Assembly: GCF_900112175.1 (NCBI RefSeq)
Contig: NZ_FOYT01000005.1
Span: forward strand, 62,001 to 126,000
Direction: 5' to 3'
DNA length: 64,000 nucleotides
Source of the DNA: Halogeometricum rufum
Lineage (GTDB): Archaea; Halobacteriota; Halobacteria; Halobacteriales; Haloferacaceae
Part shown: positions 24,506 through 28,641 of the stretch, piece by piece
Layout: every line of letters starts with the position of its first letter
Numbering within the stretch: the first letter of the stretch is position 1
The notes under the pieces: model-generated
The model's input: only the letters and a program-made list of their open reading frames with translations
Database searches by the model: none
Told to the model about the DNA's origin: nothing
Program-made: the position numbers and the translations under genes

Positions 24506-25213
24506 ATGTGTGGCCGGTACAGTCTGTTCACCCCGCGCGAGGAACTCGAAGAGCGGTTCGACGCGACGTTCGAGACGTCGCCGGAACCGCGGTACAACTG
24601 CGCGCCCGGGCAGCGACTCCCGGTCGTGACGAACGACGACCCGGGGGCGTTTCGGTCCCTCAAGTGGGGGCTCGTCCCCCCGTGGGCGGACGACCGGAAA
24701 GTCGGGAGCAACCTCATCAACGCGCGTGCGGAGACGGTGCGGGAGAAGCCGAGTTTCCGCGAGGCGTTCGAGCGTCGCCGGTGTCTCGTGCCCGCCGACG
24801 GGTTCTACGAGTGGGTCCAGACCGAGGGCGGTAAGCAACCCTACCGCGTCGCGTTCGAGGACGACCGCCCGTTCGCGATGGCCGGCCTGTGGGAGCGGTG
24901 GAAGCCGCCGCAGACGCAGACCGGACTCGGTGACTTCGCGGGCGGCGGGGCGGCCGACGCGGAGGCGGAGACGCTGGAGACGTTCACCGTCGTCACGGCC
25001 GAACCGAACGAACTCGTCTCCGACTTGCACGGCCGGATGTCCGTCATCCTCGCGCCGGACGAGGAGGAGACGTGGCTTCACGGCGACGGCGACGACGCCG
25101 CGGCACTCCTCGACACGTACCCCGACGACGAGATGCGCGCGTACCCCGTCTCGACGCGCGTCAACAGTCCCGCGAACGACGATTCGAGCGTCGTCGAACC
25201 CGTGGAACGCTGA
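24506..25213 (+). CDS. HMCES/YedK-type abasic-site DNA-protein crosslink protein
   Basis: 235 residues from the ATG at 24506. Cys2, right after the initiator Met (MCGRYSLF), is the nucleophile. The other active-site residues are visible: Asn in NARAET, Glu in GFYEW and His in LHGRMSVIL. The family (SRAP, SOS response-associated peptidase) traps abasic sites in single-stranded DNA as a covalent thiazolidine. Full length and intact. A mid-protein acidic/Ala loop (GGGAADAEAETLE) is an insertion common in halophiles. The start codon is fixed because Cys2 has to follow it. Confidence 0.93.
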   Translation: MCGRYSLFTPREELEERFDATFETSPEPRYNCAPGQRLPVVTNDDPGAFRSLKWGLVPPWADDRKVGSNLINARAETVREKPSFREAFERRRCLVPADGFYEWVQTEGGKQPYRVAFEDDRPFAMAGLWERWKPPQTQTGLGDFAGGGAADAEAETLETFTVVTAEPNELVSDLHGRMSVILAPDEEETWLHGDGDDAAALLDTYPDDEMRAYPVSTRVNSPANDDSSVVEPVER

Positions 25214-26529
25214 ACCCGCGGAGGTGCGCTCTCCCACTCGTGTCGCCTTCGAGAGGACGGATTTTGGAACGTATTGTGTATAGCGGCATGTAGTTTAGAA
25301 GTCCGCTCGCGGACACGGACGCATGTCGTGTGGTAGCATTTCAGATTTCGCTGCTCTCGGCCACCGTTCCATATCACAGGACGTGATTTACGGAGCGAGA
25401 CGCCGGAGAGTCGGAAGCAGGTGGCGTCGCAGTCGCTTGCGGAGATACCGGCGGCGAGAGTGAGCTTCATCGTGAGTCTCGAACGACGTGATACCGACCC
25501 CGAGGCACGACCGAAGCAGTACGACGAACCGAGGTGGAGAAGACGCGAGGACCGGCCGTCGCCACTGAGGGGCGGGTGCGAGTGAACGCGACGCTGACGC
25601 CGCAAAGAGGCGAGGCCACCGACGGCTGAAGATGCACGCAGAGACGAACTCGCCGAAGAGCGCTCAACGAGGACGCCCGAAGCACGGGAATTCGCAGTCG
25701 CGTGTCCTCCTACCCGCCGGCGCTGTCGTCGTCCTCGTGTTCGCTGTTAGGTCCGCGCATCGCGCAACCCTCATCCCGGTGGAGTCGACCCGTCCGAACG
25801 CACGCCGAACGACGACGGTCGACGACGACACGGTGGTCGATTCGGTCCGTTCCGGAAATCGACACAGAACGAACACTGCCCCCGTATCGTCGCAGGCGTG
25901 CATCGGCCACTTGGAACGAGCCCCCGTTCGACGGTCCGCCGTCACGTCGACCGAAGCGCGAGCGACTTCACGACCGTCTGTCACGGTGATGCTGTCGCTT
26001 CGGTCACGGCGGTGACAACGATGTCGACCGTCGGTCGCTCGACACCCGGAAACCGGTCACTGCATCTCGACCGACCACCCACTCACGAAGATGACGAGAA
26101 CGGGAGAGACTCTGTCCGTCCCCCGGCAACAGATTCCGAGTTGCGGCAACGAATGCTGGTTTCTGGAGAGGTGTTTCGGCGACGCAACCCCTGGGGTAGA
26201 CAGGGTGAACAGGCGCTCCATTTCATATAATTACACGGGAACGAACTCTGTATCATATTTCGTTGGCGACCGCAAAAATATCAACTACATATTACTTTTC
26301 TGGTAGGATCGTCGTCTTTCAGGACATTCTCCGACGAGAACCCGAAGACCAGCCGGGATGGAGAGGTAGAAAAGTTATTTGTGTGTGTGCTAAGTAAAGG
26401 ACCACGAGGGAGTCATAGATACAGATAAAGTAAAAAAATTCACCAGTTCAGAGCAATATAAGTAGGGTTATGCTGAATAGTGATGTGTTCCGATGAGCGA
26501 TCGAGAGAATCGAGAGAGACTCCAAAAGA
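25214..26529. other. 1.3-kb stretch without a convincing gene; compositional boundary
   Basis: Several open frames cross this region (the longest about 175 codons on the minus strand and 127 on the plus), but none has the acidic composition, codon bias or recognisable motif of a haloarchaeal protein. From about 26200 the DNA becomes clearly AT-rich and remains so into the HNH gene. A perfect inverted repeat GTCCGC-TC-GCGGAC is at 25301-25314. I read the stretch as degraded accessory DNA or long regulatory sequence; no transposase remnant was recognised. Confidence 0.5.
26456..26465 (+). promoter_or_regulatory. TATA-like element before the HNH gene
   Basis: AATATAAGTA, placing a start site near 26485-26490, just before a 14-codon open frame at 26493 and about 40 bp before the HNH ATG. 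Confidence 0.45.
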
Positions 26530-26537
26530 ATGAGTAG
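26493..26537 (+). other. 14-codon upstream open frame overlapping the HNH start
   Basis: ATG at 26493, then 14 codons (MSDRENRERLQKNE) and TAG at 26535-26537, overlapping the HNH start ATG (26530) in another frame. If the TATA element at 26456 is used, this is the first start codon on the mRNA. Could couple or limit HNH translation, or be chance. Confidence 0.3.
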
Positions 26538-27177
26538 TTACGAGTGTCCCCTGTCGATCTGCCCTCGTTCTTTTGAGACAGCAAGCAAAGCAGAAGACCA
26601 TTGTGCCCGAAGACATGGAATCGTCAAAGATGAATTAGACTGGTTCAACGACACCTACGAACCTCCAAAAGACCGTGCCAGCGTTCGTCCGGATTCAATT
26701 GGGACGGCGGTTAACTTCGAATACGTAAAATGTGAAACTTGTGGTGCGTCTAAGACCCTCTCAGAATATGAGAAAGCAACCCGAGACGTTACGTTTTGCT
26801 CTAAAAAGTGTCGGTCAGCATATTTCTCAGAAAGATTCTCCGGCTCCAATCATCCCAACTGGAAAGAGGACCCCCGTCAACACTACTACGGGGCAAATTG
26901 GGAGGAACAGAGATCCAAGAGAATCGCTCTAGATGGTAGAGAGTGTTTTTCCTGTGGTATTTCGGATAAGAAACATCAGAACATATATTCAAATAGTTTG
27001 CATGTTCACCATATCGTTCCAAGAAGTGAATTCAGAGGCGAAGGACGGTTAGACTGGGAACAGGCAAACAAATTGACGAATCTAGTAAGTTTATGCAGTT
27101 CTTGCCACTCGCGATTAGAAGGAAAGCAAGAAGAGTTCTTCGAGGAAGCTCAAAAATTGGCCGATGACAGCAAGTAA
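26530..27177 (+). CDS. HNH endonuclease with N-terminal zinc-finger elements
   Basis: 215 residues. The N-terminus is C2H2-like (YECPLSICPRSF...HCARRHG). Next is a treble-clef-like cysteine set (VKCETCGASKTL...VTFCSKKCRSAYF), then the HNH core: CFSCGISDKK, VHHIVPRSEF, the central Asn in NKLTNLVSLC, and CSSCHSRLEG. The DNA here is much AT-richer than the surroundings and codon use is unlike the neighbours, indicating recent transfer. It ends 2 bp before the DUF5805 gene. Probably a mobile-element-linked or homing-type nuclease; target unknown. Confidence 0.82.
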   Translation: MSSYECPLSICPRSFETASKAEDHCARRHGIVKDELDWFNDTYEPPKDRASVRPDSIGTAVNFEYVKCETCGASKTLSEYEKATRDVTFCSKKCRSAYFSERFSGSNHPNWKEDPRQHYYGANWEEQRSKRIALDGRECFSCGISDKKHQNIYSNSLHVHHIVPRSEFRGEGRLDWEQANKLTNLVSLCSSCHSRLEGKQEEFFEEAQKLADDSK

Positions 27178-27179
27178 AT

Positions 27180-27596
27180 ATGACTGAAGAGAAGACGGAG
27201 CGAAAGACGGTGATGACGTACGTTCCCGCGTATCAGAAAGAGCGGTGGAAGACCCACGCCGAGCGACTCGGGATGAGTCAGAGCGAGTTCGTCAGGACGA
27301 TGGTCCAGGCGGGGCGGCGCGACTTCGAGATACCGGACCGAACGCACGCCGACGAAGCGGCCAGCGACGACGGAAGCGGCGGCGGCAACGAGTTCGAGGG
27401 ACGCGTCCTCGACGCCCTCTCGGCGGCGGAACACCGGTCGTGGGACGAACTCCTCGACGCGTTGACCGACGACATCGAGGACAGACTCGACGAGACGCTA
27501 CAGGACCTCCAGGCGGCGAACCGGGTGCAGTACAGCGGCCGGCACGGCGGGTACGCGCTCGCGCCGGGCGCGTTCGAGGGCGACGATGGCCGTTGA
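27180..27596 (+). CDS. DUF5805-like DNA-binding accessory protein
   Basis: 138 residues. The N-terminal part KTVMTYVPAYQKERWKTHAERLGMSQSEFVRTMVQAGRRDF reads as a ribbon-helix-helix-type DNA-binding unit (beta strand, helix, SQSEF turn, helix). The C-terminal part (EGRVLDALSAAEHRSWDELLDAL...LQAANRVQYSGRHGGYAL) is winged-helix-like. It resembles proteins filed as DUF5805. It overlaps the recombinase by 11 bp, so the two are co-translated. It may be the recombination directionality or accessory factor. GC-rich, host-like codons, in sharp contrast to the HNH gene just upstream. Confidence 0.75.
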   Translation: MTEEKTERKTVMTYVPAYQKERWKTHAERLGMSQSEFVRTMVQAGRRDFEIPDRTHADEAASDDGSGGGNEFEGRVLDALSAAEHRSWDELLDALTDDIEDRLDETLQDLQAANRVQYSGRHGGYALAPGAFEGDDGR

Positions 27597-28641
27597 GACG
27601 GCCGACGGCGAGGTGGTCGAGGACCCCGTCGCGTACTTCCTGCAGGACATGACGTACCACGGGAAGACGGAGCGAACGAAAGACGCCTACGAGCGCGTTC
27701 TGCGGCGCTTCGAGGCGTTCCTCGCGGACCCGGAGGCGAACCCGATGGACGCCGAGAAAGCCGTCTCGGGGGCGTCTCATCGCGACTGCATGGCGTGGAT
27801 TCACTCGCTCCGACAGGCCGACGCCGCCGACAGCACCGTCGCCACGTACGCCTCCTACCTCCACCGGTTCTACGCCTACATGACGCAGGTCGGTGCCTTC
27901 GAGGCCAACCCGATGACCCTGGTCATGGAGGAGATGGACGAGCAGATAGACACGAACCCCTCGCGGCGCGAAATCACCGTCGCCGAGATGCGCGCGTTCC
28001 TCCGCGAGGTGCACCATCCGCTGGACCACGCGGTGATGTTCACCCTCCTCAAGACGGGGATGCGCGTCGGCGAACTGTGCAACCTCGACTGTCGCGACGT
28101 CGTCCTCGCGGACGATACACCGCTGGGTGATGTATCCAACCGGGCGCAACTCGACGGCCGCGGGCCGTCGCTGTACATCTCGGTGGAACCGTCGGCGGGA
28201 GCGACGACGAACGGCGAACGCCGGACGGCGTCGAACAAGCGCAAGCGGTCCACCGTCGTCCCCGTCGACGAGGAGTTAACGACCGTCCTCACCCGGTGGT
28301 TGGCCGTCAGACCGGACGTCACCTCCCCCGCGAACCCGCTCTTCGTCAGTACGTCGGGCAGTTGGGGCGACCGGTTGACGACCGACATGGTCCACCACCT
28401 CGTCGAACGCCACGCGGCCGAACGCGGGTGGCACCGCGCCGGCGCCGACAGCGAGGAGAACGTCACGCCGCACTACTTCCGGCACTTCTTCACGACCCAC
28501 CTGCGCGACCGAACCGGTGACCGCGGCATCGTGAAGTACCTCCGCGGCGACGTCGGCGGCGACATCATCGACACCTACACCCACAACTGGGGTGACCGGG
28601 TCCGAGAGACGTACGAGCGCAACATCTACTCGCTCCTCTGA
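27586..28641 (+). CDS. tyrosine recombinase / integrase (XerC/D-like)
   Basis: 351 residues. The N-terminal SAM-like core-binding domain spans about 10-115. The catalytic domain has Arg160 (TGMRVGEL), a Lys in the beta-hairpin region (218-220), His296 and Arg299 (HYFRH) and the nucleophile Tyr331 (DTYTH). The box that is usually LGHS reads LRGD (319-322), so the normal His/Trp position is not filled by either. Overlaps the DUF5805 gene upstream. Could be a chromosomal Xer-like enzyme or the integrase of a decayed element; no element boundary is proven. Confidence 0.9.
   Translation: MAVETADGEVVEDPVAYFLQDMTYHGKTERTKDAYERVLRRFEAFLADPEANPMDAEKAVSGASHRDCMAWIHSLRQADAADSTVATYASYLHRFYAYMTQVGAFEANPMTLVMEEMDEQIDTNPSRREITVAEMRAFLREVHHPLDHAVMFTLLKTGMRVGELCNLDCRDVVLADDTPLGDVSNRAQLDGRGPSLYISVEPSAGATTNGERRTASNKRKRSTVVPVDEELTTVLTRWLAVRPDVTSPANPLFVSTSGSWGDRLTTDMVHHLVERHAAERGWHRAGADSEENVTPHYFRHFFTTHLRDRTGDRGIVKYLRGDVGGDIIDTYTHNWGDRVRETYERNIYSLL

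Follow-up and report, generated by a model that had tools for sequence, protein, structure and literature searches.

Layout and base composition of the locus

We analysed a 64-kb stretch of DNA (the window) from the 4.19-Mb genome of a haloarchaeon of the genus Halogeometricum. In this window a gene for a free-standing HNH endonuclease stands directly in front of the genes for a DUF5805 protein and an Xer-like tyrosine recombinase (Table 1). The approximately 1.3 kb between the SRAP gene and the HNH gene contain no convincing gene. An earlier sequence-only reading of this DNA had described the region as gene-poor, and this description is correct for 25214-26529. A tRNA scan of the 64-kb window found no tRNA, and therefore the window offers no tRNA att site. 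An Rfam scan of 25000-27400 gave nothing at E values of up to 1.

Table 1. Genes and sequence elements around the HNH gene (positions in the window)
Feature	Positions	Strand	Basis
SRAP gene, ancestral upstream neighbour in many relatives	24509-25213	+	Pfam SRAP 3.4e-72
Gene-poor intergenic DNA, 62-64% GC	25214-26169		matching stretch of relatives also gene-free
Conserved non-coding element, ACCCCNGGGGT core	26170-26215		aligned in 7/7 Halogeometricum and sister-genus loci
Accessory half-site R1 (TTATTTGTGT)	26375-26384	-	conserved alignment block; arm copies repeat at the same offset and orientation across genomes
Accessory half-site R2 (ACAGATAA)	26421-26428	+	alignment; arm copies across genomes
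Dif-like dyad CAATATAA-GTAGGG-TTATGCTG, candidate recombination core site	26454-26475		single in genome, arm covariation
Inserted free-standing HNH endonuclease gene, 215 aa	26530-27177	+	Pfam HNH, composition, relatives without it
DUF5805 protein, predicted N-terminal ribbon-helix-helix and C-terminal winged helix	27180-27596	+	profile and fold matches
Xer-like (Arch1-like) tyrosine recombinase, core haloarchaeal gene	27586-28641	+	profile searches, distribution

The sequence-only reading had also proposed an AT-rich block that begins at about 26200 and ends next to the DUF5805 gene. The block is real. GC content is 61.8% in 25214-25700 and 63.8% in 25701-26200, and it drops to 42.9% in 26201-26529. 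Across 26201-27177 it is 43-45%, compared to 68% for the whole window, and the lowest-GC 650-bp windows of the 64 kb all start within 26101-26651. The HNH open reading frame is intact and has a GC content of 45.3% (GC3 0.44), whereas the values are 67.1% (GC3 0.86) for the DUF5805 gene and 66.8% (GC3 0.90) for the recombinase gene. The right end of the block fits the earlier description in part. The HNH stop codon lies 2 bp ahead of the ATG of the co-directional DUF5805 gene, but the change in composition at 27177-27180 is gradual: in 60-bp windows GC is 0.50 at 27180 and reaches 0.65 by 27240.

The HNH gene and the extent of the insertion

The HNH protein has zinc-finger-like Cys/His motifs in its N-terminal part and the HNH domain in its C-terminal part. 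It scored 36.9 bits with the Pfam HNH profile (curated cut-off 21.4, E 4e-9), so the HNH gene named in the sequence-only reading is present. The CxxC, VHH, N and CxxC motifs, which carry the catalytic and zinc residues of the domain, were all found, and the protein also matches HNH families of PHROGs. Its closest near-full-length relative is gp38 of the halovirus HJTV-4 (33.5% identity over 90% of the protein), a lone gene adjoining the tape-measure gene. The second such relative, in a prophage-like region of a Natrinema plasmid, also lies beside a tape-measure gene. Further relatives occur in the haloviruses HCTV-1, HCTV-5, HVTV-1 and HFTV1 and in haloarchaeal plasmids. Across the 170 family genomes compared, all matches were distant; the best had 33-48% identity, mostly over the HNH part. 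Thus, the gene is lone and sporadic in its distribution and has its relatives in viruses and mobile DNA; by profile, the protein is classified as a virus-type free-standing nuclease of the homing type. We also considered low GC as a general trait of the HNH family and rejected it. Only 14 of 23 homologs have a lower GC content than their own flanks, with a mean difference of about 2%, and the strong AT-richness is therefore particular to this copy.

It turned out that, of the 168 loci compared, no other has HNH at this position and that the other 169 family genomes have no ortholog there. When the loci were compared in the same orientation, the DUF5805 and recombinase genes of the relatives were always together, often with SRAP upstream (syntenic in seven genomes), and never with HNH. 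In the relatives the gap holds 144-304 bp of non-coding DNA. These leaders might have been decayed remnants of an HNH gene; this was rejected, since blastn found no similarity between the non-coding leaders of the relatives and the HNH gene.

The closest relatives are six genomes, four of other Halogeometricum and two of the sister genus. The stretch 26170-26500 aligns with all of them and contains invariant blocks. Since 26201-26529 aligns to all six, the AT-rich leader belongs to the ancestral locus, and the new DNA is limited to 26530-27177. From this alignment, 26201-26529 is best described as the putative ancestral control or att region of the downstream operon. Thus, a gene of foreign composition was indeed inserted upstream of an older operon, as the sequence-only reading had supposed, and it is not shared, with common codon use, by all relatives at this place. 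However, the AT-rich block is not a single unit, and the inserted segment does not start at about 26200. The same reading had also allowed that the insert supplies the promoter of the operon. Since the conserved upstream region is ancestral and order-wide and was not brought by the insertion, the HNH gene more likely borrows this region than supplies a promoter. Its ATG follows 54 bp behind the dyad, near the usual position of the DUF5805 start, which would probably place it on the ancestral promoter. In this strain the DUF5805 gene is displaced to 704 bp from the dyad.

The interval between SRAP and DUF5805 shows other variation. In the sister genus it contains large secreted-looking genes (L065, 8538-10217; L066, 5653-7362 and 8289-9791), in one or two related copies, so that the interval varies in gene content. 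The conserved non-coding element at 26170-26220, also found in L061-L066, includes a ACCCCNGGGGT palindrome approximately 200 bp upstream of the half-site array.

The DUF5805-recombinase pair and its upstream site

The recombinase was found in 166 of 170 family genomes, normally once, with extra paralogs in a few. It was also present in all 157 high-quality genomes of the order and in all 116 genomes sampled from the class, with identities that were mostly 58-88%. Tyrosine recombinases of mobile elements have a patchy distribution. The DUF5805-recombinase pair, being near-universal, is core in haloarchaea, and in this respect the claim that the operon is older than the insertion holds. Among 197 genomes of the phylum DUF5805 exceeded its cut-off only in haloarchaea and appears to be confined to them. 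The fold matches of DUF5805 are weak, none being below E 0.1, and the best-fitting small targets are ribbon-helix-helix domains. The domain was absent from the papers of the open-access literature that we searched.

The recombinase aligns to the XerA and XerD structures. However, it scores below the curated Xer cut-offs (115 bits compared to 220 for XerA, and 94 compared to 335 for XerC), and for this reason we refer to it as Xer-like and not as Xer. It has an extra segment of approximately 40 residues between the two stretches that match Xer, and an invariant Asp at the position usually taken by the second catalytic His/Trp; the latter counts against an Xer/dif reading. Only 2 of 20 relatives had a match above the cut-off of the canonical XerA model, and thus canonical XerA is not the universal enzyme. 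The genome itself encodes two further Xer-type recombinases (G000:C1:675802-676575 and 694694-695482), one of them over the canonical XerA cut-off. They are probably integrases of mobile elements, because their family is patchy in the relatives.

The DUF5805 gene is preceded by a dyad that has ATAA and TTAT as its inner arms and a 6-bp spacer (ATAA-N6-TTAT). Among 62 distinct dyad sites, three inner T/A positions never vary, and the inner positions of the spacer show no complementarity. The outer arms vary, yet they covary: 0.685 of the pairs are complementary compared to 0.555 with shuffled partners (0/2000), a value that is uncorrected for relatedness and serves as support rather than as a probability. 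A matrix built from the dyad sites, trained on about one third of the 168 loci, found a match in 162 of them, mostly 40-51 bp before the DUF5805 start. In a further 104 loci, some of them from the same genomes, the dyad score was above 8 in 102. The dyad was the sole match in each of seven genomes from two genera at up to 3 mismatches, and a second dyad pattern matched at this locus only, in 5 of 16 other genomes. A narrower Haloferax pattern matched only three of seven genomes, as the genus is variable in both arms and spacer. None of the virus contigs scanned with three dyad patterns carries the site. Along assembled chromosomes, where contig starts are arbitrary and origins unmapped, the dyad positions vary widely and show no terminus-like location.

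Copies of the half-site were found upstream of the dyad at fixed positions, approximately 33 and 80 bp away, in opposite orientations. At least 7 of 8 positions matched the arms of the same genome in 48% of the half-sites, and the arms of other genomes in 29%. Judging by this arrangement, the dyad and its extra half-sites are built as predicted for a recombinase site that has accessory half-sites. The DNA between the dyad and the DUF5805 start includes a conserved block.

Single genomes depart from the common arrangement. Haloferacaceae archaeon XH8 (L126, L163) is the only genome in which DUF5805 and the recombinase lack a recognisable dyad in front of them; the dyad may have been lost or moved there. 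In two Halegenticoccus species (L092/L159 and L093/L167) the dyad arms and the upstream half-sites differ together, CACAAATAA in one arm type and CCGGATAA in the other, which represents a natural switch of specificity. In Haloarchaeobius leaders (L191, L202) a similar AACCCCNGGGGT motif lies downstream of the dyad.

Interpretation and comparison with known systems

We consider it probable, from the comparison of loci, that the HNH gene was inserted into a haloarchaeal single-recombinase Xer/dif-like module, between its site and DUF5805. This module would be old and order-wide and consist of two outward-facing half-sites, the dif-like dyad, and then the DUF5805 and recombinase genes. Conservation, linkage, a single-copy site and arm covariation characterise it. 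As in Xer/dif systems, there is a universal chromosomal tyrosine recombinase, normally in one copy, and a site with two inverted arms and a spacer of the 6-8 bp class, single per chromosome where searched. The most likely role of the recombinase is to bind the half-sites and to carry out recombination at the dyad; we propose recombination by analogy with the single-recombinase Xer systems XerS/difSL and XerH/difH, which have an adjacent dif. DUF5805 would serve as an accessory protein or an autoregulator. In this strain the virus-type HNH gene sits between the dyad and DUF5805, where it probably arrived by nuclease-driven homing or illegitimate insertion. It now probably heads the operon, with its transcription starting in the ancestral upstream region, and the DUF5805-recombinase pair would then be read through from the HNH gene. 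The gene itself is of an ordinary kind, a passenger and not a third component.

The dyad and half-sites may instead form an operator cluster for autoregulation by DUF5805 and/or the recombinase, with the true recombination site elsewhere. We keep this as the main rival, since the distance from the dyad to the start codon is nearly constant, and we regard it as a serious though clearly less probable explanation. The conserved block between dyad and start, the RHH-like domain of DUF5805 and a single-copy site beside its own gene would also suit an operator. On the other hand, the strict 6-bp non-palindromic spacer and the ATAA/TTAT inner arms resemble dif. The two upstream copies are isolated half-sites, which better suit a recombinase that binds as a monomer than an RHH dimer, and in several lineages the dyad is shifted 130-304 bp from the gene.

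Two other explanations concern the HNH gene. It adjoins the site, and bacterial elements integrated at dif are known (PMC5357621), so that it might belong to an IMEX-like element that the recombinase inserted into the dif-like site. Such an element would have two flanking sites, but the genome has one (at up to 3 mismatches), and no copy lies where the HNH gene ends on the right; the dyad is intact, the HNH start lies outside it, and no virus contig has any of the three scanned patterns. We strongly disfavour this possibility. A functional three-gene system, whether the accessory module that the sequence-only reading had seen here or a defence system, appears even more improbable. The closely spaced co-directional genes and the weak resemblance between the HNH domain and nucleases of defence systems would agree with it. 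However, HNH adjoins the DUF5805-recombinase operon in this strain only, the pair is core in haloarchaea without it, and PADLOC gave only weak matches, mainly within the HNH domain.

Returning to the Xer/dif-like module with an inserted HNH gene, its function can be stated more tentatively. With slightly less than even confidence, we suggest that haloarchaea resolve their chromosomes by an Xer/dif system made up of DUF5805, the recombinase and the adjacent array of four half-sites. This system would be a variant specific to Halobacteria, in which the active site is altered, the DNA site is complex and att-like, and the partner protein combines RHH and winged-helix domains; this strain would tolerate the HNH insert. 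In a review of Haloferax volcanii the role of the XerC/D-like enzymes is undetermined and dif sites are only presumed (PMC7776575). The module beneath the HNH gene may be the missing haloarchaeal Xer/dif system. Chromosome-dimer resolution in haloarchaea thus becomes directly testable with a universal recombinase and an adjacent candidate site, and DUF5805 gains a plausible role. The HNH gene is of interest chiefly as a natural insertion: it indicates that interruption of the leader between the site and the operon is possible.

The HNH gene shares its domain with the free-standing HNH genes of haloarchaeal tailed viruses (HJTV-4 gp38, HCTV-1, HCTV-5, HVTV-1) and is alike over most of its length in HJTV-4. 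In contrast to them, it is chromosomal, lies in a core operon and is related at low identity only. Among recombinases, Arch1 is a Halobacteria-specific Xer-like group with a short insertion that was suggested to compensate for Xer, in the part of the source covered here (PMC8138268). Our recombinase fits the description of Arch1, the likeness being one of description and not of an Arch1 profile; the same part of that source reports no site or partner. With the archaeal XerA/dif of Pyrococcus and Sulfolobus the module shares a single-copy dyad of the 28-bp dif-like type with a 6-bp spacer, and the dif predicted for Sulfolobales lies near xerA (PMC2958812). Within the open literature, the main text of that paper on archaeal dif gives no haloarchaeal site (0 matches to 'halo'). 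The difference from XerA/dif is that canonical XerA is rare in haloarchaeal relatives. Single Xer recombinases keep dif adjacent to their gene, and XerS/difSL and XerH/difH likewise consist of one chromosomal recombinase of approximately 350 aa with the site beside its gene (PMC5357621). Compared to these systems, the spacer is 6 bp in the haloarchaeal dyad and 11 in difSL, and the haloarchaeal module adds DUF5805, two half-sites and an Asp in the active site.
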